From assembly GCA_033675265.1 (NCBI GenBank), contig JAUJYZ010000686.1:181001-245000 (forward strand): a DNA stretch of 64,000 nucleotides, given 5' to 3'. The translations under genes and the position numbers were made by a program. This DNA is from Actinostola sp. cb2023 (Eukaryota > Cnidaria > Anthozoa > Actiniaria > Actinostolidae). Positions 245 to 50,065 of the stretch are shown here, piece by piece. Position 1 is the first letter of the stretch. Each line of letters starts with the position of its first letter. Under the pieces are notes generated by a model that had not been told where the DNA came from, did not search any database, and saw only the letters and a program-made list of their open reading frames with translations.

Positions 245-3200
245 ATGAGTATGAACTGTGAATACAGAGCAATGCTGCTCGTTGTTGCCCGTCAGATAGG
301 CACGAAAGAACTCGAAGAACTAAAATTCCTATGTGTCGATATGATCCCTGAAAGTCGCCGAGAAGAAATTACAGAAACACTTCGACTTTTTCTCGAACTA
401 GAGAAGCAAGCTCGGCTTGGAATCGATCAACTGGATTGGTTGGGTTACATGCTTGACAAAATCGGCAGGCAGGATCTTGTTCTGAAGTTAAGAGACTTTC
501 AGTTCCAAAGAAACGCGTTTCTTGGGCATTTACGCAAAAGAACAATTACAGATTCTGCAACGCTGCAAGAAAATCATGCTACTGAAAATAGTGGTGAGTT
601 ATTAAAGCCACTGCATGTTAAACCAATCTCTTGCAGTTATATGTTTGATAAATACAACACTCTTATACCAGTAATTTATCAATCATTGTGGCAGAGTGCA
701 AACACTAAAACCATGAAACAGTACTAAGTATTTAGTGCTAAATAGCACCAATGGAACAATAGAAAACAATAGACATTGTACTATTTAGTACTAACTAAAG
801 TTAGCACTGTTTCATGGTTTTAGTGTTTGCACTCTGGCCAGTGTTTTTATAACGGGAATTTTTTAAGCTTTCAAATGGCTTCTTCGCGCATATTGGTCGT
901 GCGCAAGTACGGTCAGTAAAATGACTCAGAATAAGTCAGTTTAAATTAAACTAGAAAACTGCTAGCTATAAATGATTATGTTTTGGTTTTCCGATTTAGT
1001 TACTTTTACGCTAAATCTTTGTGTAACTGAATTAAATCACACTTAATTCCTGTTACGCATGTGATATATCAGTACTATCAATTTAACAAATTTACGATAG
1101 TTTCGCGTGGTATGTCCTCTTATTTACCACGGTTGGCGTCATCGAATCGTCAAAATTGTTGTGGATTCACGAGGCGTAGCCGAGTGCATCCACTTAACAA
1201 TTTTGACGATGAGATGGCGCCAACCGTGGTAAATAAGAGGACATACCACAAGAAACTATCGTAAGTTTGTTTTTTACCACAACAGAGGGAGAAAACATCC
1301 GAAAACGCCGATAAATTTTGAAAGAAAAACTGATTCAAGCGCGCGCTAGATCCGTGCGCGAGCGAACACGCAATTGCCGTGGTATGTACTCTTATTTACC
1401 ACGGCTCTAAGCCAATCAGAGAGCGAGAAACTGACTAGTTGTGGTAAAAACTCCTATTTTTAGCATGCGATCTTTATTATGACATGAATTGATTTATTCG
1501 ACTTGAAATAAAAAAACATTTTTTCTCTCGTGCTAGAATATTCAACGATACCGAATAATTATCCACCATCTTCTGAGTACAATCCATCAAACAACAGACA
1601 AGCTGGAGGTACAGTATTGTAATTAAAATCAGTTGTTACTCTTCCTCCTCGCAGCATCAGATTAAGTTAAAACTTAGCCTACAGCCGCTTTTTTACGCTC
1701 GCCACAGCGACCGCCAAAAAGCGGCTGTATTCGCAGGCTAGTTAAAACTAGACGCCCTATTGGCGTTAACCTCGGTTCCTGAATTGCATCAACTTCAGTT
1801 GCACTAATTTCAGGGAATAGCAAAAAAAGTAGCAAGCTCCATAAACATGGTCCATGCATGGTCCATGAACGCCAGACAACGCTTACTGTCATGCTTCAGT
1901 ATTAACTGAAGTTCGCTTATGTGTGTGTGTTGAAATCCCGGCCTTTGTCCATACACTTAATTGATCGATACTGCTAATCCTATCATGGGTACATGGCGTA
2001 GCAATTTCAATGCAGTAAATGTATGTGAGAAAATCGTATTTCCTAATTTTCTCCATGCTGGATGTTGCAGCAGAATCTTTTCCAATGTCCTAGTTTGAAG
2101 AAAGCCATGGATTGTACGTCAAAAAATCTGGACAATCAACGAATTTGGAGATGGTTCTATCAAAATTACATAATTAACGTAGCAATTTTCAATACAGTAA
2201 ATGTATGGGAGAAATTTGTTTTTCCCATTTTTTTGGCCGAACTAGATATTGCAGTTGCTCAGAATCTTTTCCAGTGTCATTTTTTGAAGAAAGCCAAGGA
2301 TTGTACGGCAAAAAATCTCAGTGGACAATTAACGAATTTGGAAATGGTTCTATCAAAATTACATAACGTAGCAAATTTATATACAGTAAATGTATGGGAG
2401 AAATCGATTTTCCTAATTTTTCGCCTTACCATACTAGACGTTGCAGCTGCTCTTCTCCTTTTCTGAGCCCTAGGTCCAGTTAAATCACATACTTACGAAT
2501 TTTCATATAACTCACAAAATTCTCTCTTGCGGGTTTTTACCAGGTGTAATGTTTTTGATGCGCAAAGGATTGTGGTAAAATGTATAAAGTGCCAATACTT
2601 TATCAATACTGTAGATTAATGACCATGACGTCAACCGGAAGTGTAAATAATTTCTGTTCGGGATTTCGTACATTAGAGATTTAGTCCAAGCCTAAGCCTG
2701 TGAGGTTACTTTATCCACAGGGAATATCAACTATGAAGGTATGAAACTCCGAACAGAAGTTATGTACACTTCCGGCTGACGTCGCCGTCGTCGATTTTAC
2801 AAAGCTTAAACTCCCTATGATTATCTCTAGAGGTGACTGCACGATGCATCCTCAGAATTGCGTCCGTGGGGGCCTGGTTTGGAGGATGTGCTTATCTTCT
2901 AAATCAATACAAAGACGATCCAGAAGCCTTGATAAATGTAATAACTAGAGTGATATTACCATCGGGTATCGTAGTGCGACACATCGCCAGTGGATCTGTG
3001 AAACTGTTGCTATGGGCGACGGACCTGAGCGCCCTTAAAGAATTATGGAATAGGTAATTGATGTAATAGAAAATGACGTGACCGATTTACGAGCTCTTTT
3101 GATTTGATCGATGCATGTGTGTCATGCTACCTACCCTGGGTTCCAGAGGCCTTAGGAGCCCACTCCTCGGCCTCTGGAACCCAGGCCGGGTACATCAGCT

Positions 3201-5980
3201 ACCTGGCACGCAGAGGACTACTTGAGAAGGTGGCTAGTGTTGATTGGCTGACTCACTGACTCACTCGCTCGCTCGCTCACTGGACACGAGCTCTCGCTTA
3301 CTGATTCATTGGACTGCATCGCTGACTTTTAAAATACCGACATCTGACATTAGAGTCGTTTTCGTATATGAGTGGGAAGTAGTTACGGTACGGTTCGTGC
3401 CATACGGTCGAGTGACCGTGACGTGTTGATTGGTTGAGCAATGATATATTTTGCGCTGTGATTAATTGGTCGACTAGAAGTACCGTGACTGCATTACTAC
3501 ATAGGTTCCCCACTCATGCGAAAACGATTCTAACTATGTGACTTATTATTGTAATTAACTATAACTGAGTGACTGAGTGACTGACGCTTGTCTTCACTAT
3601 CTTCTAAGGTACAAAACAGGTCAGCTACGCGAAGACCTGGAAAACCTACTGGTAACAGAAGACTTGAAGAACTTGGCAAATGGTGAAAAAATCGAATTTA
3701 GTGTTGAGATGAGTGAAGATGAATACAGGAACGCTTGCCTTGACTTGGTGATCGCGCATTATGAAGGTAACCAACAGTGCAAAATTGCCGTTTGTCTGCT
3801 GTTTCCCAGTCTCTAGCGCAGCCATTTCACTGAACCGCGGAGGGAATGGGACCAACCGTAAGAACAGGTAGTCTGCGTAGCCTGGCTTTCCGAGAGCCAA
3901 GTTACGCAGGCTAATGCAAAGGGTAGTGCTTTTTGAGTACTTTGCGGATATTACTTTCGTTTTCTAGTGAATTTCTTCAGTTCGTCTCATAAAGTGTGTC
4001 CCCTAACTAGCTCGCTTTCATGTACGGAATCCTAAAGCATTATGGGTAACTAACTATTCGCGAGATAGTCCATTCTTTAATATTTTGGAATGAATTGTTA
4101 ATTCATGAATTTAACATTTTTACGTTTATCTTTTTATTTTGATTTGTTCAGCTACAAGTTACCTCAACACCAGTCTCTCACGGACACTACATCGTTCCTG
4201 TTCTTTAACGGATATGACGTCACTCAACATACAGCCAATCATGGAAAACGCTCGAATCCAAGAGTTGCCACGTGACACAAAATACAAGATACCAATACAA
4301 AATAAACATCTCTTAAAGCTTCAATTAAGCGAATGTTCTTCGATGTCATCAGGACGCTTTAGTTCAAGTGTTTGCAGCGAATCATCTGAAAGTACTGGTG
4401 CGTATCCAGGCATTCCAATCATTAAAATATATTGTGCGCGCGTCTCTTTTGGTGGGTTTCCTGTGGCAGGGAGCGTTGGCATATTATATATTGGGCTTCC
4501 TGTGGCAGAGCGCGCGGCATATTGTATATTGGGCTTCCTGTGGCAGAGCGTGCGGCATATTGTATATTGGGCTTCTTGTGGCAGGGCGCGTTGGCATATT
4601 ATATATATTGGGCTTCCTGTGGCAGAGTGTGCGACATATTATATATTGGGTTCCCTGTGGCAGAGTGCGCGGCATATTATATATTGGGTTTCCTGTGGCA
4701 GAGCGCGCGGCATATTATATATTGGGCTTCCTGTGGCAGAGTGTGCGACATATTATATATTGGGTTCCCTGTGGCAGAGTGCGCGGCATATTATATATTG
4801 GGTTTCCTGTGCCAGAGTGCGCGGCATATTATGTATTGGGTTCCCTGTGGCAGAGCGCGCGGCATATTATATATTGGGTTCCCTGTGGCAGAGCGCGCGA
4901 CATATCATATATTGGGTTCCCTGTGGTACTCGTAATTTGTGTTACTTTTTTGTAGATGATTCCCACTTTTTACTTTGTGATTTCCTCCAAACGAGCGACA
5001 AAGTTCAAGATATCTGTGCCCTTCTCGACCGAGATATGATATTGTGCGACGATTGGCGGAGCCTCGCTTCCGAGTTCGGTAACAAGATGATTAATATTCG
5101 TCTCTGGGAAAGAAAGCCTTCGCCTTCGTTGGCTTTGCTGGAAGACATTGTCTTCAAATCGCCATACACGAAAGTGACTGAGCTAATCGATAAATTGTCG
5201 GAATTAGACCGGGATGATGTCGTGGCACAAATACAAGGTACAGGGGAATACCGGGAATGCATATATATGTGTATTTTTATTTTGTTTTCCTCTTCGTTTT
5301 TGACGAGACAATTGACTCGCCTCCCCCCTCCTCCCATCTTTTATAGTGTATTTTAACCGATATAATTAATGTTGAAAAATGTTCTTGAATTGCTGCATAG
5401 AGTCGTTTTCGTACTGATGAGTGAGAAGTAGTTACGGTACGGTTCGTGTCGTGCGGTACCGTGCCGTGACTGTGCCGTGTCCAAGCATTCTGATTGGTTG
5501 AGCAATGATTTTGCGCACTGTGATTGGTTGAATAGAATGTCTTCGATTCCGTACCGCGTGACCGTAAGGTTTCCCACCCGTAAGAAAACGACTTTAGTCT
5601 ATGTTGTGCCATAACGTACAATACTAAGGCTCATATTTCGTATATTTGCAGGTCGTGAATACAATAGCGACCCCTTATCACTATGGAACCTACCATTCAT
5701 GGTTAGAAAGAAAATTGCTGTAGAACTGGACAGTGCTACACAATCACAATTTACTGATGTGGTCCGTAATCTCGCAGATAATATAAGCCCCGGCGAAATA
5801 GAGTCCCTTAGAAAACGCCCCTCGCCAACCATGACCCTTCTAGAGGAACTAGAAACAGCGTTTCCCTCTTTACATGTATCACACCTCCGTGATGCGTGTC
5901 TTCAGGGTAAAGTTACCGACGCTGTAAAAACGCTAGAGCGATACACAAGAATGACTCAGTTAAAAAGGAAGAGAGTTTAA
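245..5980 (+). CDS. DED / TRADD-N-like / death domain / death domain adaptor, six exons
   Basis: Exons by eye: 245-593, 2831-3053, 3609-3766, 4152-4397, 4956-5237, 5652-5980. They sum to 1587 nt (528 aa plus TAA), with GT/AG borders and continuous phase. Residues 1-90 form a death effector domain with FADD-like signatures (LKFLC, LGIDQL, and the charged GRQDL near residue 75). Exons 2-3 (about 160-240) resemble the TRADD N-terminal ferredoxin-like fold: ALKELWNRYKTGQLRE, LVTEDLKNLANGEKIE, SVEMSEDEYRNACLDL. Exon 4 is a Ser-rich linker. Exon 5 (326-419) is a death domain (DICALLDRDMILCDDW, IRLWERKPSPSLALLED). Exon 6 (420-528) is a second one (FTDVVRNLADNISPGEIESL, RKRPSPTMTLLEEL) with a basic tail. 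Homotypic DED and DD contacts recruit caspases or kinases, so a cytosolic adaptor role is inferred. An in-frame ATG at 173 is possible; 245 was chosen because the DED starts directly after it. Introns hold MITEs and a minisatellite. Confidence 0.8.
692..836. mobile_element. MITE, family with CAGAGTGCAAAC ends, copy 1
   Basis: Near-perfect 31-bp terminal inverted repeats (692-722 and 806-836; ends CAGAGTGCAAACACTAAAAC) flank a short AT-rich core containing ACAATAGAAAACAATAGA. It lies in intron 1 of the adaptor gene. The same core and ends recur at 28052-28159 and 31392-31534, so this is a dispersed family, not a one-off hairpin. Confidence 0.75.
1092..1264. mobile_element. Foldback element, about 75-bp arms
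   Basis: Arms 1092-1170 and 1186-1264 are almost perfectly inverted and share TTACGATAGTTTC ends and TGGTATGTCCTCTTATTTAC. The loop is only about 15 bp, so a transcript of intron 1 would form a long hairpin. A partial copy of the same arm (GGTATGTACTCTTATTTACC) sits at 1381-1401. Confidence 0.75.
1675..1742. repeat. Short inverted repeat
   Basis: TAGCCTACAGCCGCTTTTT on the left pairs with AAAAAGCGGCTGTA plus GCAGGCTA on the right. It is a small MITE-like hairpin in intron 1 of the adaptor gene. Confidence 0.55.
1990..2462. repeat. Three direct copies of a ~185-bp sequence
   Basis: Copies start near 1990, 2177 and 2359, the last one partial. Each contains CAGTAAATGTATG followed by GAGAAA. 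The two complete copies also share GAATCTTTTCCA, TTGAAGAAAGCCA and GGTTCTATCAAAATTACATA. The open frame across them is a by-product. Lies in intron 1 of the adaptor gene. Confidence 0.7.
2626..2783. mobile_element. MITE with GACGTC/CCGGAAGTGT arms
   Basis: The left arm (TGACGTCAACCGGAAGTGTA, then TTTCTGTTCGG) is inverted at the right end (CCGAACAGAAGT, then TACACTTCCGGCTGACGTC). It ends about 45 bp before adaptor exon 2. Confidence 0.65.
3131..3192. repeat. Hairpin, CCTGGGTTCCAGAGGC arms
   Basis: A near-perfect inverted repeat with CCTGGGTTCCAGAGGCC on the left and GGCCTCTGGAACCCAGG on the right. GAGCCCACTCCT in the loop resembles the ends of the element at 32786-33523, so this may be a solo relic of that family. 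Confidence 0.55.
3352..3532. mobile_element. MITE with AGAGTCGTTTTCGTA...GAGTGGGAA ends, copy 1
   Basis: Terminal inverted repeats AGAGTCGTTTTCG and CGAAAACGATTCT, each followed inward by the ATGAGTGGG block. The interior carries ATTGGTTGAGCAATGAT, an inverted CCAAT box. It is in intron 2 of the adaptor gene. Related copies lie at 5399-5594, 17509-17712 and 17983-18131, and a second subfamily at 22361-22518 and 63415-63712. Confidence 0.7.
4454..4925. repeat. 38-bp minisatellite built on GGGHTNCCTGTGG, inside adaptor intron 4
   Basis: About 13 units of 38 bp, each GGG(C/T)T(T/C)CCTGTGGCAGAG followed by GCGCGGCATATTATATATT. They nearly fill intron 4 (4398-4955). The unit is not a multiple of 3, yet all three plus frames stay open across the array. 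The same unit occurs in facing pairs at 47927-48105. Confidence 0.85.
5399..5594. mobile_element. MITE with AGAGTCGTTTTCG ends, copy 2
   Basis: Left end AGAGTCGTTTTCGTA, right end AAAACGACTTTAGT. It has an internal CCAAT-type sequence (TGATTGGTTGAGCAATGATT) and a second ATTGGTTGAATAGAATG. It lies in intron 5 of the adaptor gene. Confidence 0.65.
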
Positions 5981-6090: not shown

Positions 6091-6096
6091 AATAAA
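6091..6096 (+). promoter_or_regulatory. Candidate polyadenylation signal AATAAA
   Basis: A canonical AATAAA lies 111 bp after the stop codon of the adaptor gene. It is the first one on the plus strand downstream and is a reasonable 3' end. The cleavage site is not determined. Confidence 0.4.
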
Positions 6097-6203: not shown

Positions 6204-6801
6204 CAGTCCATAAGTAGGAGCATCCATGCTACATATTGGGTCAATGTCACGCCGGTTTGAACAAGTTTGGCTATTTTTAGAACACGATTTCTCGAAATTG
6301 ACCAATCACTGTGCACTTCCAGTTTTATTTGATGCAACTCGTTTTATTTGTTGCAATTCGTTTTATTTGCAGCAACTCGTTTTATTTGTAGCAACTCGTT
6401 TTATTTGCAGCAACTCGTTTTATTTGCAGCAACTGGCGTTTTATTTGCAGCAACTCGTTTTATTTGATGCAACTCGTTTTATTTGTTAACTCGTTTTATT
6501 TGCAGCAACTCGTTTTATTTGCAGCAACTCGTTTTATTTGCAGCAACTCGTTTTATTTGTTGCAATTCGTTTTATTTGCAGCAACTCGATTTATTTGCAG
6601 CAACTCGTTTTATTTGCAGCAACTTGTTTTATTTGCTGCAACTCGTTTTATTTACTGCAACTCGTTTTATTTGCTGCAACTCGTTTTATTTGTTGCAACT
6701 CGTTTTATTTGCAGCAATTTCGTGTTCTAAACTAGCCAAACTTGTTCAAACGCCGTGACAGATTTTAATGCTACATGGATGCTCCTACTTATGGGCTCCT
6801 G
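6204..6801. mobile_element. TIR element, family CAGGAGCCCATAAGTAGGAGC, copy with minisatellite
   Basis: The right end (GCTCCTACTTATGGGCTCCTG) matches the ends of elements at 44227 and 45010. The left end is degraded (CAGTCCATAAGTAGGAGC). Subterminal inverted repeats include GTTTGAACAAGTTTGGCTA and its complement. The middle is filled by the minisatellite at 6325-6718. Confidence 0.7.
6325..6718. repeat. 18-bp minisatellite, GCAACTCGTTTTATTTGC
   Basis: About 21 units with A/T variants in the CAGCAA/TGCAA junction. They sit inside the TIR element at 6204-6801. Open frames across the array are repeat artefacts. Confidence 0.85.
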
Positions 6802-14800: not shown

Positions 14801-17800
14801 CTCTTTTTGAGGATGAAAAAGAGGGCCAATCAAAACTCGACCATAATTTTCAACGATAGCGTCCATGTTGACGGATGTTTTAAAGAAATGCATTTGCGTG
14901 ATGCGATCGATCACGTACTCTAGTTTTTCCCCGGGATCAATTTCCTAAAGCCAGAACAGTTCATGGACCTTCATGGTTCTCGAAGCGTTTAATTATCATT
15001 AAAAAAAAAAGGGGAATGATATGTATTTGCACAGCTACCGACAGGATATGGCAAAAGCTTGATATTTTTGCTTGTGATATCCGATCCTTAGCGCTGGTAA
15101 ATGTGTTGTTTGAATTGGGAGGCCAGAAACGATTTGAAGCTACAAGTACCGCCAACTGAAAGAATACGCACCACGAGTACGGAATACAGAGTTTTCAGCG
15201 TATATATCATTATGAACAATCTGGACTTCAGTTGTCACTACATTTTTGACATTTCTTTAGGGTCTGAAATGCGAGCTATACTAAATCCGTTTGAGAGCGT
15301 ATCACGCCCCAGAACTCGTACTAGTAGGTAATTTATCCAGCGGGTTGTTTCGGCCGGTGACTTCGGAGCGCGGACAAAAACCGCTGGATCCTCGAGCATG
15401 TGTACACATGCAATCAGGCCACTTTATTCAAGTGTTGATATGTTACTCTACTGTAGGTGTCTGTGTCTTGTGGTATCCCTGACTTTAGATCACGTGATGG
15501 TATCTATGCACGACTAAGTGAGGAGTATCCTGACCTACCTGACCCACAAGCCATGTTTGATATAACTTATTTTAATCAAAATCCTCATCCGTTCTTCAAA
15601 TTTGCAAAGGTGAGTAATAAATAACCAAACAAATTCTGTGTGTGTGTGTGGATGGATGGTCACAAGGGTGAAACCCATTAAATATATGGTGGAACCCAGT
15701 GCTTGATGGACACCCACTCTCTCAGCAACAATATACATGTACCATGATAATTACTGATTTATTTGGATTTTGCTCTTTTGTTTTAGGAAATTTATCCTGG
15801 TCAGTTTAAACCATCCTTGAGCCATAGATTTATCCAACAAATAGAAAAACATGGTTGCCTTTTAAGAAACTATTCACAGAACATTGATACATTGGAGCAA
15901 ATAGCCGGTATAACTAGAGTTATACAATGTCACGGTAAGAACTGGAAAGCTCACTATATTGCTGGCAATAGGACTGCAGTATGTGTTCATCTGCGCAATA
16001 AATGGTCATATGACATTAGTTTCTCACTCTTTTCTGATCCTGGAGACCTTTCACAAACCATTGCTGAGTGGACAGTACATAAAAATAACATTGTGTATTG
16101 TTTTTGCAGGGTCTTTCTCTACGGCTTCATGTACAAATTGTAAATACCAAGTTTCCTCATCTGATATTAAAGATGATATATTCAATCAGGTAACTGGTGA
16201 ATTATACTAGTTGTTACTGGTTGAATTTCTTTAATTAAATCGCTGATGTCCTGATGAAGTTTATCCCTTTTGCAGAGAATCCCAGTTTGCTCCAAATGCA
16301 AGCAAGAAGAAGGGACATTTGCCACCATGAAACCTGGTATCCTTTACCAGTAATGTTTATTGTTAAACAATAATTGAAACTACAGATTGCCCTGTTTTGT
16401 GGTAGTGTGCAACATACCAGGGAAGCAGGGGTGTGGTGAAGTAGTTAAATCTCTCGCCTCTCACCACTGTGGTGCCCAGGTGCTACATATGAGTAGAGTT
16501 TTTCAGTGTGTTCTCTGCCTTGCTCTTTTTTAGTTTATCTCCAGGTTCTCCGGTTTTCTTTCCTTCTTTCACACTAGAGAAATGAGGCGTAGATCTATAC
16601 GTAATTCACTTTCCATGTTAACAACAATAATACATGATTTGTATGAACAAATAATTGACAAAAAATTGCTGCTGACACATTTTGAGAAGTGTATTTTTTG
16701 TATTTTTCCATGTCTGAAACTTACCAGAGTACCCTCATACAGTCATTTGCAAAAATTCTGGCCGCCACAAAATATCAATATAACAATATATCGGGTGCAT
16801 TATGGGTAATTCAATAATACTATTTTGAGTTTTCTAACTTATTAAATGAAGCAAAATTTACAAACAACAAACATAAGACTAAAATAAACATTATACTAAA
16901 TATTTATACCAACTTTGCTGACGTTAATCCGCTTTAAGGGGAATTTTCGATTATTTAATTACCCAGAATGCACCCGATATATTGATATATTGATATTTCG
17001 TAGCGGCCAGAATTTTTGCAAATGACTGTAACATAAATATATATTTTTATTTGTTTGTTTATTTATTTACTGTCTTGCTTCCTTAACTCTTTATAAGATA
17101 TTGTATTTTTTGGTGAAAATTTACCATCTGATTTCTACCACCACTTGGAAGATGATTCTGAGAAGGTGTGGTACAGCAACATTAACTTATACGAATAACA
17201 ATAATACCACTAGAGCAGTACTCCAGTTGTGAGTGGTTTAGACATCTTTGTACTCACAAGACACAGTGTTAGCCTCAATTCAATGTAAATGATGTGCACA
17301 CAAATACCAACGAGAATATGAAAGAAATGTTGACATTGGACAATATAAACCTTTTAAAATTCCATGGTTTATTCTCTGAATTGAGTGAAGTGTGTTTTGT
17401 CAAGGAGTACAGTGGTGCCTAACAACTCATAACTAGAGTATTGCACTGCCTTTCATGTCTGATATACTTTATACATATACATGCAGTGCATTGTATGTAT
17501 ATTTTACTAGAGTCATTTTCACATGAGTGGGAAACCTACTGCATAGAGTTACCGTCACAGTACAGAATCGAAGACATTCTATTCAACCAATCACAGCACG
17601 CAAAATCATTGCTCAACCAATCAGAATGCTTGGATACCGCACGATCACAGTACCGTCACCGCACGGCATGAACCATACCGTAACTACTTCCCACTCATAC
17701 GAAAATGATTCTTACCTTTTACTAAAATCATTGTATTTGTAGGCTGATTTGTTGATTGTCATTGGATCCTCATTGAAAGTACGGCCTGTAGCTTTGATAC

Positions 17801-20800
17801 CAAGTAAGTACTTGTAATGGGAAAAATGAGAGTTCCCACTTTTTTGCTCTATATATTTTCCGTTCTATATTCACTCCCACTTGCAAAAACAGAAGGACAA
17901 GGAAAATCAATAATGTGTTATTATGAAGACACGTGTACATGTCAGATATCTTTTTGGGCATACAGGTACTTTCCCAAGTATTAGCGTCATTTGAAAGTGT
18001 GGGAAACCTACAGTACAGAGTTACGGTCACTGTACAGAATCAAAAACATTCTATTCAACCAATCACAGCATGCAAAATCATTGCTCAACCAATCAGAATG
18101 CTTGGACATGGTACATGCATGGCACGAACCATACAGACTCTATCATCATAACATTAATAATACTATTAGAGTGAATATTATTAATCATCCAGTCGATAAA
18201 ATGAAATAAAAAATTGAATCACTTACTGGAATATTAAATTGCAACACAAGCTACGTTTAATGTTCCAGTAAGTGATTCAATTTTTTATTTCGTTAATAAT
18301 ACTATTATTTGTCACATTTTCTTAGGCCGGATTGATGCAGATGTGCCACAGATTCTTATAAATCGAGAACCACTTCGTCACATGACATTTGATGTTGAGT
18401 TACTAGGCGACTGTGATGTCATTGTAGCAGAGCTTTGTAGAAGACTAGGTGGATCTTGGACTGATATTCTTGAAGGATCAAAAGTTTTTCCTGTGGACAG
18501 GTCTCTTTATCTTGGAATAACTGACAGTTTAGACACACCCAGTACAAGTGACTCCATGACTGCTGCAGAAGAGAAGGTTAGTACATTTTGTAAGACTAAC
18601 TGGTCAGTTGTTGGCTTGTTGGTGGGTCATCAGATAGTTGTTTGGTCAGTAGGTAAGTCAGCTGGACATTCATTAGTCAATCAGTCATTCAGTTGGTCAG
18701 ACAATCAGTCAGTCAGTCAGTCAGTCATTCATTTAATCAGTCAGTCAACCAGTCAGTCAATCAGCCAGTCAGTCAATCAATCATTCATTCATTCATTTAA
18801 TCAGTCAGTCAGTCAATCAATCAGTTGATCAGTCAGTCAGTCAATCAATCATTCTCATCCATTCATTCGGTCGGTCGGTCGGTCGGTCGGTCGGTCGGTC
18901 GGTCGGTCGGTCGGTCGGTCGGTCGGTCAAGTCGGTCAATCAGTCATTCATTCATTCATTCATTCATTTAATCAGTCAATCAGTTAGTCAGCCAGTAAGT
19001 CAGTCAATCAATCAGTTGATCAGTCAGTCAGTCAATCATTTGATTAGTCAGTCAGTTACATGTAGTCAGTCTGCAGTCAATCAATTGATCAGTCAGTCAA
19101 TCAGTTAGTTAGTCAGTCAGTCAGTCAGTCAATCATTTCATCAGTCAGTCAGCTAGTTGGTACATGTACATGCACTTTCAGTAGGTCAATCTTTTTATGA
19201 TGTATTCTGTATTTCTTTAGAACCTAGAAGAATGTCCAGGTGAAGAATGTCCAGGTGAAGAATGTCCAGGTGAAGAATGTCCAGGTGAAGAGTGTCCAGG
19301 TGAAGAATGTCCAGGTGAAGAATGTCCAGGTGAAGAATGTCCATCTGAAGAATGTCCAGGTGAAGAATGTCCAGGTGAAGAATGTCCAGGTGAAGAATGT
19401 CCAGGTGAAGAATGTCCATCTGAAGAATGTCTAGGTGAAGAATGTCCAGAGAAAAACCAGAAATCATCAGCAAACTCCACTCTTGAAAAACATTCACTGA
19501 AAAAAGAAACGTCATCCAATCTCATCTTAGAGATTGTTACAGCTACCACAGAGACGTTGCCAGAACAACACTATGGAATTCCATCTCAGACAAGTTCTCT
19601 TTCCAAAGACGACCCTCCATCCTCTCCTGGCACTGCTGTACAGGTTGATGTCCAGGAAACTGAGAGTACTACCATCCAATCAGTTGGCCAGGACACTAGT
19701 TGTATGTCTACTGATGATCAAAGACAGGGAATAATGGCTCCATCTGACACACCCCTAGCAACAGAGTATCCTAGCAACCAGGAATCTACACCTAATTATA
19801 CTAGTGAAGGTGGGTGCTTATACACCTATTATAACATTATCCAATGACAACCTATCACACCCAGGCATTGATTACTAGTGTCTGTCAATTCAACAGAAGT
19901 GATTGGTTTAATGAGGGTTTATCACGTAATTTCAAAATTCATAGGACAAAAAATGATTATCATAGCTGGAAAGAGCTCGTTGAAATTAGTAAAAATGTGA
20001 AGTTTAGAAAAGATCGCTTCACAAATTGCGAAGATATGAATTTTCAAAAATCGAAATTTTATATGAAAACCTTTGAAAATTTACGCTGGTAGGCAACTCT
20101 TGCCTCCAACAAAGGTTTTCATACAAAATTTCGATTTTTAAAAATTCATATCTTCGCAATTTGTGAAGCGATCTTTTCCAAACTTCACATTTTTATTAAT
20201 TTCAACGAGCTCTTTCCAGTAATGATAATCATTTTTTTGTCCAGTTTTGAAATTACATGATATAAAACCCTCATTCATTCAAGTTGCCACATGTTGTAGC
20301 AGATGGAGCATCATTCAACATTTTTAATGTTAAACTGTAGTTTTCTGTTCAGCAAATTTATGTTATAAAATAACTATAATATAATGCGTGCTCTGATTGG
20401 CCAAAGGATGTGTATTCTGCGCGCTCTATGAGAAGCTGCACATAGCACGTGCGTGCATATATGCAAACATTTTGGAAACGAACAGACTTGAAAATGTGCC
20501 TTAAAATCATATTATTGTATTTTATAAAAGAAATAGAAAACTCGGAAGCTGTGCTCTATTAAGTTATAGAAGCACTTGGGAATTGAAAGAAGACTCGAGA
20601 AGTGAGAGCTACGCCTCGCTACACTTTGTGCTTCTCCTATCACTTCTCTCGTCTTCTTCTAATTCCCGCGTGCTTCTATAACTTGATAAAGCATGCTGCC
20701 TCTATTTCTATGTCTTCATTAAACCGTGTGTCATGGGCTTAACCTGTTGTGATAACATATCACACCCTCTACGCACTCAAACATACTGTTATTTCAGCTG

Positions 20801-35861: not shown

Positions 35862-37115
35862 TCACAATCTTGACTCACGTGATGCGTTACCATGCCTACC
35901 AGTCGGAGATTCCGGCACGCCATGGCTTGCCATATTGTTAAAGGTTTTAAGAAGAGCTAATGGCGATTCACATTGCGCGGATGGACTCGTGTTGTCAGCC
36001 AGTGAATATCCTTGAAAATCACTAATAAAGAACCTACCAGTGAAGACGCCAGTGGACACACGGCGTAGTAGCTTGGGCCCTGTATCGATACATGAAATGC
36101 ACTTGGCGAGTACGCCTAGGGCGATCTTCTTGAAGCTCTGGTTCATGGTGATGAAGATGTAAGGGTTAATAGCGCTGTTAGCGTGGGATATCCAGAAGCC
36201 AATCATCACCACCCAAGGAGGGAGTTGCTTGAACCTGGAGTAGTGGAAGTTGATGAATATATGCATGATGTGAACGGGCAGCCAACACAGCGTGAACACA
36301 ACCAGAACGACAGCTAGCATTTTCATAACACTTTGTCTACTTCGAAGTGCTGCCTTGCGGTTTAGCTCGAGGAGATTTCCTGGTACTTGGCGTCGCCAGA
36401 GTCTTCGTACGATGATAGTGTGCATAAAGGCTATAGCTAGTAGTGGGAGTACGTACAGCAAGAACAACACGAGCAGGTAGAATATCTTTGGCGAGCGTGT
36501 GACGTGGAATTCAGGTCCCCATACTAGTTGACAGAGGTGGATGTTATCTTGGAACGAGCTGACGCGGTAGACAACCAGGTAGACGAACATGAACACAGCA
36601 GAGGCAATCCACACTATCAAAGACAGTAACGTTTTGTTATGAATGACGTGTATGTACTTCAGAGGATACACAACGGCACAGAACCTCTCGAGTGAAACTA
36701 GAAATAGGGCTATGATGGACGCTGCTATGGTAACAGCAATGACAAAATGTACCACTTTGCAGAGCAGCGTGCCAAATACACCTCCAAACCATCGTCCTTG
36801 AATAAACAAGTAGATCACAGAGTATGGCATGGCAAGCATTGTCGTAAGCAAATCTGCCATCGCCATATTGGTTATCAACACATTGGTCGTTGTGCGCATG
36901 TGCTGATAATGCACCACGGCGTGGATCACCAAGACGTTGCCAAGCAACGCGGTTACAAACGTGATGACGTAAGTGGTCGTCATGGCAATCTGGAGGTTAC
37001 GGGGAACATTGAAGCCATTCCAGTGACTGGTTATGTTATTGGTTTCTGATGAGAAATTCAATGAGTAATCGGATGTGTTAATTGCACGTGTAGCGGTGGT
37101 TGGGTAAATAAGCAC
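35862..37115 (-). CDS. Class A (rhodopsin-family) GPCR, peptide-receptor type, 5' end incomplete
   Basis: The frame gives 417 residues with seven membrane segments. Landmarks: N-glycosylation sequons at N13, N20, N27; N60 (TM1 GNVLV); D88 (NMAMAD, TM2); C119 and C195 for the extracellular disulfide; ERF at 143-145 in place of DRY; W169; P224 (TM5); CWLP at 277-280 (TM6); NPYIF at 317-321 in place of NPxxY; Ser/Thr-rich tail. These suit neuropeptide-type receptors coupling to G proteins, but the ligand cannot be read. The first codon here is GTG (37113-37115), an upstream TGA closes the frame, and the first ATG is residue 45, inside TM1. A start codon on an upstream exon is therefore required. 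TM7 HANSAINP is shared with the GPCR at 48881-49966, so the two are probably distant paralogs. Confidence is high for family, low for start. Confidence 0.88.
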   Translation of the reverse strand: MLIYPTTATRAINTSDYSLNFSSETNNITSHWNGFNVPRNLQIAMTTTYVITFVTALLGNVLVIHAVVHYQHMRTTTNVLITNMAMADLLTTMLAMPYSVIYLFIQGRWFGGVFGTLLCKVVHFVIAVTIAASIIALFLVSLERFCAVVYPLKYIHVIHNKTLLSLIVWIASAVFMFVYLVVYRVSSFQDNIHLCQLVWGPEFHVTRSPKIFYLLVLFLLYVLPLLAIAFMHTIIVRRLWRRQVPGNLLELNRKAALRSRQSVMKMLAVVLVVFTLCWLPVHIMHIFINFHYSRFKQLPPWVVMIGFWISHANSAINPYIFITMNQSFKKIALGVLAKCISCIDTGPKLLRRVSTGVFTGRFFISDFQGYSLADNTSPSAQCESPLALLKTFNNMASHGVPESPTGRHGNASRESRL

Positions 37116-37260
37116 TCTATTAATTCATAGTTGTTCTATACAAAGAGCATGGAAACCCTACTTACATTACAAGTGTCTTGTGCAATATGGAAAGCAAATT
37201 GTCTCGATTCTCTCTCAAAAACCTTGTACACTGCTTGTTCTACAATGCACTTTCTTTAGC

Positions 37261-48880: not shown

Positions 48881-49966
48881 TTAGATAATGACCGTCTTGG
48901 TTGTTTTCTTGGATCCTCTTCTCCAAAACAAGAGACTGTCGCCTTTGTGTTTGTCTTTGTTTTTATTGCTTCCTTTCCCAGAACTTCCGTCGCCTCTGAT
49001 GATTCCTGATATGTGAGCCTTAAACAGCGCCCGCGAATTCTTGGTCAGCATCAAGTACAAGAAAGGGTTGATTGCACTGTTCGCGTGCGCAAGCCAGTAA
49101 AACGAAAAAATAAGCCATCGTGGCAAACACTTGTAGATTTCATAGTTAAACGTCGCTATTAGGTGATTGACGTGTACCGGAAGCCAACAAAGTGCAAAGA
49201 TCACCATTATGGTCACGAGTTTCACGATGACGCCCTTTTTCTGATCGTGCAATCGACGGTTGTATTCATCAGTTTCTTCTCCGATGGCTCGTTTTTTCCA
49301 TAGCACACAGATTATCATGGAGTACAGAACGATCATTGTCCACAAGGGAAACGCATAAATAACGGCGAATTTGACTAACATTTCGATGACGTAACGCTTC
49401 TGCCATATCGCAGCCGGCACGCAAAAGTAGTGCTCTCCTCCCGAGGACACGACCTCCATCTTAATGATCTCATGGATGGACAGTAGGCCAGCCAGGAGCC
49501 ATATAGCTGCGATCACGCGTTTGACGGTGCTTGTTGACATGGGTCTCTTAAGTACCTGTGTGGTTGCTAAGTAACGCTCGATGGTAATCACTGTCAACGT
49601 TGTCGTGGATACCAGAATAGCCACGGGGATCAAGAAGTTGCTAAGTTTACACAAAAATGTACCAAAGAATCCTGGGAACCATTGAGTCTCAACGTGCAAG
49701 TACGAAATGTTTATTGGGATAGAAGAGGCGGCGTCTAATATGTCGGCCACGGCCATGTTCACGACCAAATAGTTGAAGGAAACTTTCATTTTTTTGTGTG
49801 TACGAACTAAGTGAATGACGAATGAGTTGCCAGTGACAGCGGCTATCAGTACGAAGGCATTCGCAATGGTCAGCCCAATCTTAGTGCCATCATCCACATA
49901 CCCTTGACAACCTATTGGCGTGGAAGCCAGGTTGCTGCTCGAGTTCATTGATTGGTTGTTCGTCAT
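48881..49966 (-). CDS. Class A (rhodopsin-family) GPCR, peptide-receptor type, single coding exon
   Basis: 361 residues from an ATG at 49964-49966. Sequons at N4 and N8; N47 (TM1 GNSFVIH); D75 (NMAVAD, TM2); C106 (TM3) and a Cys in ECL2 (HYFCVP); ERY at 130-132; proline in TM5 (YAFPLW); CWLPVHVNHL (TM6); HANSAINPFLY (TM7); short basic tail rich in Gly/Ser/Lys (GSSGKGSNKNKDKHKGD). These place it with rhodopsin-type receptors for small peptides. The ligand and G-protein partner cannot be inferred. A plausible acceptor (CTCAAACAG|AAAAC) lies 5 nt upstream of the ATG, so a spliced 5' UTR is possible. It shares the CWLPVH and HANSAINP blocks with the GPCR at 35862-37115. Confidence 0.92.
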   Translation of the reverse strand: MTNNQSMNSSSNLASTPIGCQGYVDDGTKIGLTIANAFVLIAAVTGNSFVIHLVRTHKKMKVSFNYLVVNMAVADILDAASSIPINISYLHVETQWFPGFFGTFLCKLSNFLIPVAILVSTTTLTVITIERYLATTQVLKRPMSTSTVKRVIAAIWLLAGLLSIHEIIKMEVVSSGGEHYFCVPAAIWQKRYVIEMLVKFAVIYAFPLWTMIVLYSMIICVLWKKRAIGEETDEYNRRLHDQKKGVIVKLVTIMVIFALCWLPVHVNHLIATFNYEIYKCLPRWLIFSFYWLAHANSAINPFLYLMLTKNSRALFKAHISGIIRGDGSSGKGSNKNKDKHKGDSLLFWRRGSKKTTKTVII

Positions 49967-50065
49967 GTTTTCTGTTTGAGCAATTGAAAAACCACATCAA
50001 AATAGAGAAATGAAATATGTTCCAAAGTTAAAATAATATCACAACGTGAGGTTTATCATCCCAAT

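Follow-up and report, generated by a model that had tools for sequence, protein, structure and literature searches.

Proteins in which a death effector domain (DED) and a TRADD-N domain form a constant region, followed by variable tails, are widespread among invertebrates and constitute a published theme of immunity (Kaur et al. 2021, eLife, PMC8195603). That paper describes an expansion in cnidarians, where the DEDD2 clade has 17–168 copies, and a classic TRADD clade confined to vertebrates, and it reports Death-like superfamily domains in the tail of some Crassostrea virginica DED+TRADD-N members; it also proposes that TRADD-N serves as a bridge that, in the absence of a signal, keeps the domains on either side of it inactive (PMC8195603). 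Excerpts from two further papers report that some Apaf-1/CED-4 homologs have C-terminal double death domain repeats, that Nematostella members of this family carry DEDs (PMC2246300), and that Acropora FADD interacts with caspase-8 (PMC4715348). Here we describe a gene in 64,000 nucleotides of the sea anemone Actinostola sp. cb2023 (assembly GCA_033675265.1, contig JAUJYZ010000686.1, positions 181,001 to 245,000 of the forward strand; hereafter the window), whose product joins a DED, a TRADD-N homolog, a death domain (DD1) and a probable second death domain (DD2) in one chain.

Gene structure and a full-length relative

The gene occupies 245–5980 (+) of the window, and its six exons encode a 528-residue protein (1587 bases joined, with a single terminal stop). 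All five introns are of the GT...AG type, with phases 1, 2, 1, 1, 1 in order along the gene.

Of 7,991 candidates scored in a predicted-protein search, two proved to be relatives, and both belong to Actinia tenebrosa. The first, P0001 (LOC116298542 isoform X2, 579 aa), carries the same architecture into another anthozoan: it aligns across every exon junction, with the parts in identical order, and is 48% identical to the query over its full length (100% coverage; E 7.5e-152), which excludes chance and supports the splicing as modeled and the succession of the four parts. Chance open reading frames and a wrong splice model were rejected on the strength of this relative and the frame check. P0001 differs in a DED–TRADD-N linker about 26 residues longer and a C-terminus about 36 residues longer. 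The second relative, P0002, shares the DED and TRADD-N as far as the beginning of exon 4, after which it continues into an unrelated tail that has no Death match. This shows, at the level of sequence, that relatives can have different tails and that the family has constant and variable parts. Two further protein searches returned P0001 only, without P0002 (1/313 candidates; 1/7,991 scored).

The first-pass annotation of this stretch, made from its letters alone, had placed the start and the exon borders as given here, with DD1 as exon 5 and DD2 as exon 6, and the splice and frame check found them correct. Its assignment of four parts to one gene and one chain likewise held, on the basis of the kept frame, the full-length A. 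tenebrosa relative and, for DD2, the predicted fold. It had also proposed assembly by exon shuffling, an idea that agrees with domain modules bounded by phase-1 introns: exons 2–3 jointly are 1-1, as are exon 4 and exon 5.

DED and death domains

Exon 1 (245–593, +) contains the start codon, the DED (residues 7–86; Pfam E 2.1e-19, or 6.1e-21 alone) and the beginning of the linker, ends in phase 1, and is aligned by both P0001 and P0002. The best sequence matches of the DED are caspase-8 chains (E 1.6e-11), followed by PEA-15 (2e-5) and FADD (8e-5). At residue 75 it reads RQDL, an RxDL motif (R75–L78). Exon 5 (4956–5237, +; residues 326–419; phase 1-1) encodes DD1, matched by Pfam Death at residues 343–419 (E 9.4e-10), with MyD88 (E 3e-4) and p75NTR (E 0.008) as the nearest solved structures in a profile search. 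On these sequence matches, the DED and DD1 assignments are firm.

Exon 6 (5652–5980, +), encoding residues 420–528 and the stop codon, has no Pfam Death match, and a profile search against the PDB gave no match at E up to 10. Structure prediction nevertheless yielded six helices, with a mean predicted local distance difference test score (pLDDT) of 74.5 in the best of five AlphaFold2 models, and the first-ranked Foldseek and VIA matches of that model were mostly death domains. The DD1 profile recovered exon 6 at E 0.009. Exon 6 probably encodes a death domain, with six helices in the predicted fold and a resemblance to DD1. When given single exons, MAFFT set exon 6 onto DD1, and exons 4 and 6 were for that reason omitted from alignment A4. 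The earlier description of all DED and DD calls as firm therefore stands for the DED and DD1 on Pfam evidence, and gives way for DD2, which lacks a Pfam match, to a call from predicted fold and DD1 similarity.

Between TRADD-N and DD1, exon 4 (4152–4397, +; phase 1-1) encodes a Ser-rich linker (residues 244–325) that P0001 aligns throughout and P0002 only as far as the stretch around TSL. Weak Pfam matches on the 528-residue protein (DUF6179, F-box_4, PTB, bDLD3 and others) were treated as noise.

Several features of the surrounding DNA were also recorded. Most of intron 4 (4398–4955) is occupied by a 38-base minisatellite of 12.4 copies (4453–4926), and since no stop interrupts the frame running from exon 4 across this intron to exon 5, a retained intron 4 would insert 186 codons. 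Intron 1 holds perfect 31-base inverted repeats at 692 and 806 (692–836), perhaps a short element like a miniature inverted-repeat transposable element. Past the stop codon, the sole AATAAA within 620 bases, a possible polyadenylation signal, lies at 6091–6096 (+), and a 19-base tandem repeat of 20.8 copies (6322–6717) follows directly downstream of the gene.

TRADD-N homology through same-genome paralogs

The TRADD-N part is split between exon 2 (2831–3053, +; ending in phase 2), which holds a hydrophobic Gly-rich segment recognized by hydropathy and then the first half of the domain with Gly171-Ser172, and exon 3 (3609–3766, +; ending in phase 1), which holds the second half (YKTGQLREDL...SEDEYRNACLDL). 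In the protein itself, the match to TRADD-like_N falls below the Pfam cut-off (E 0.029 for the whole protein; 0.014 and 0.011 for the region alone), and P0001 has no TRADD-like_N match at E up to 1. Searches of the Actinostola genome ran on the 424 Mb assembly and give lower bounds in their counts, as only the best candidates were scored and exons were read singly. There, the family model matched two places at E up to 1, the paralogs L013 and L014; among 14 control genomes it matched in one, below the cut-off.

These two paralogs carry the assignment. Their TRADD-N regions lie above the cut-off (L013, E 2e-7; L014, E 2.1e-6, the latter read as two exons joined manually) and can be aligned to the exons described here. 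In single comparisons, 101 residues of exons 2–3 align with L014 at 42% identity (E 4e-28) and 114 residues with L013 at 33% (E 5e-16), and L014 has an intron at the identical place and phase as that between exons 2 and 3 (AG|G, W-K/N-R then Y). A profile–profile comparison (hhalign) of three sequences of the query kind with four paralogs gave a probability of 99.7%, and PF20694 matches 6/7 members of the TRADD-N alignment A10 at E up to 1.

The TRADD-N superfamily signature, given by Kaur et al. as a tiny residue plus Ser, sometimes Cys, in the beta2–beta3 turn (PMC8195603), is present in all seven aligned domains, as Gly-Ser in six and Gly-Cys in one. By analogy with that published motif, the Gly-Ser of our protein would lie at the beta2–beta3 turn. 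Taken through the same-genome paralogs, the alignments demonstrate homology of exons 2–3 to TRADD-N. A profile search of the region against the PDB had no TRADD entry among the matches listed, and the AlphaFold2 model of the A. tenebrosa protein (six alignment rows) has a mean pLDDT of 37.9, with the TRADD-N stretch nearly all below 50. The first-pass call of a TRADD-N-like ferredoxin fold is thus upheld as to homology, whereas for the fold itself the sole covering model has a pLDDT below 50 nearly throughout.

DED, TRADD-N and Death loci across the genome

Death matches in the Actinostola genome number at least 45 at E <= 0.001 and DED matches at least 25, and neither domain was matched in any of the 14 control genomes. 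With the TRADD-N protein sequence as query, at least 35 matches were obtained at E <= 10, two of them being the gene itself. They form arrays on contigs C1478 and C745, with single places on C1538, C1156, C97, C93 and C926. The arrays extend over C1478:6564-86691 and C745:295862-410810, the latter in both orientations, and contain several equal scores, perhaps because the copies are nearly identical or were duplicated in the assembly. We considered and rejected an array of local paralogs ahead of the gene: 40 kb upstream (L009–L012) gave, as its best result, one match at E 0.04.

Death and TRADD-N occur on one contig only at the gene described here and on C745, where they lie about 287 kb apart; within the limits of the search, TRADD-N appears to adjoin a death domain nowhere else in this genome. 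DED and TRADD-N share a contig at our gene, on C926 (in one frame, with the DED below the Pfam cut-off) and on C1156 (36 kb apart). The TRADD-N paralogs differ in what follows the domain. L013 has a TPR in a separate later frame downstream; L054 (C1538, 468-1715, -) joins TRADD-N to a Ras-type GTPase (E 1.4e-29) in one 415-residue frame; and in L039 a single frame holds TRADD-N, a weak DED and a tail to which Pfam has no match. With the DD-DD tail of our gene and the unrelated tail of P0002, this makes the tail the part that varies. The frames of L055 and L056 look similar to that of L039.

Other DED places were read with 8 kb (five) or 10 kb (four) of sequence, and frames adjoining them contain NB-ARC-like (L049, L050), NACHT-LRR (L051) and WD40 (L052) domains. 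On C632, a DED exon (Pfam E 2.1e-21) and a Death exon (Pfam E 2.4e-12) share a strand, with the latter some 1 kb downstream, a pair that we regard as a candidate FADD and a better one than our protein. The first-pass annotation had supposed that the protein would work without a separate FADD, a view that this candidate does not support; our protein is therefore unlikely to replace FADD.

Functional interpretation

The most likely reading, which we hold with moderate confidence, places the protein among the DED+TRADD-N family as an adaptor carrying a two-DD sea-anemone tail, taking input through its death domains and giving output through its DED, with TRADD-N as a hinge. The C-terminal death domains would join a DD platform, such as a receptor or a MyD88-like protein, and the N-terminal DED would then nucleate or join DED assemblies of the caspase-8 type, with FADD or with DED-NB-ARC/NACHT receptors. 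The intervening TRADD-N could be a hinge under regulation or a surface for interactions, following the proposal of Kaur et al. for the superfamily (PMC8195603). That the protein bridges receptor complexes to DED caspases is a plausible inference from its domains. Probably an existing DED+TRADD-N gene acquired the tail later, by way of phase-1 exon units, which is consistent with the intron phases and with P0002.

A different role is open to the same parts. Were the protein a decoy or brake, its one DED would cap DED filaments while the death domains occupy DD platforms, damping death or NF-kB signaling, for which PEA-15 and cFLIP provide precedents. The 528-residue protein has no catalytic-domain Pfam match above the cut-off, and its DED matches PEA-15 directly after caspase-8 chains and ahead of FADD; DEDD2, moreover, is described as a negative regulator by Kaur et al. 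(PMC8195603). The RxDL motif is nevertheless present in the DED, and an activating adaptor fits these features equally well. A brake on DED/DD assemblies agrees with the sequence nearly as well as an adaptor does, and we hold it to be a real but lesser possibility. A false fusion of two genes, DED+TRADD-N (exons 1–4) and DD-DD (exons 5–6), might be suggested by P0002, which has the former with another tail and no Death match; it is highly improbable, since P0001 unites all parts across every junction in one public-record protein and the frame is kept over five splice junctions.

Membrane tethering, compatible with either adaptor or brake, would have the hydrophobic segment of exon 2 (residues 122–140, about 2850–2905, +) insert in the membrane. 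A Gly-rich hydrophobic stretch recurs in the query, P0001 and P0002 and is clearest in L054 (Kyte–Doolittle (KD) 1.77; Goldman–Engelman–Steitz (GES) sum -35.4). The stretch is weaker in L013 (KD 0.77), L014 (0.42) and L039 (0.99), marginal in the query (1.53) and low in P0001 (1.12), where a window within TRADD-N scores higher (1.61). The segment includes an Arg in both query and P0001 and may be a helix of the fold, and a spanning helix would separate the DED from the death domains across the membrane. We regard tethering as unlikely. Similarly doubtful is the most elaborate form of the adaptor reading, a single-chain protein with tandem-DD input, DED output, TRADD-N gating and a membrane tether acting beside FADD, as a sea-anemone invention occurring once in the genome as searched.

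If the protein is an adaptor, it links DD platforms to DED effectors via a TRADD-N hinge in one molecule and makes the switch idea of Kaur et al. testable where both ends fall into binding classes whose partners are known (PMC8195603). It would also represent a second cnidarian DED-DD death-signaling route beside FADD, made of phase-1 exon modules.

Neighboring genes

Elsewhere in the window, a sirtuin gene lies at about 15450–18600 (+) and is probably wider (SIR2 E 2e-60, with its exons assembled by eye); we presume it to be SIRT1-like. Just downstream, a frame (19221–19847) that opens with a GEECP repeat may represent the C-terminal exon of this gene. Two single-frame rhodopsin-type G protein-coupled receptor genes lie at 35862–37124 (-) and 48881–49996 (-), with 7tm_1 matches at E 6.5e-51 and 1.5e-44, respectively.

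Comparison with known systems

Like FADD, which has about 200 residues and just its two domains, our protein has an N-terminal DED and a death domain further on; unlike FADD, it has 528 residues, a central TRADD-N and a probable second death domain. With TRADD it shares a TRADD-N type domain followed by a death domain, and it differs from TRADD in its N-terminal DED and, again, the probable DD2. An origin by fusion of FADD and TRADD of the vertebrate type is doubtful because DED+TRADD-N is widespread in invertebrates and TRADD-N has other tails in the same genome.

The closest likeness is to the invertebrate DED+TRADD-N family of Kaur et al., in which the N-terminal Death-like domain is usually a DED: an N-terminal DED, a TRADD-N with Gly-Ser and a variable tail are common to both. 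Compared with the oyster group, our protein starts with the DED, has no extracellular part, and carries two death domains as its tail. No paper in our literature searches, which covered titles, abstract openings and parts of the main text of Kaur et al., names the order DED-TRADD-N-DD-DD. Set against these accounts to the extent covered, the DED+TRADD-N core of the Actinostola protein is already known, and what is new is its ending in two death domains.
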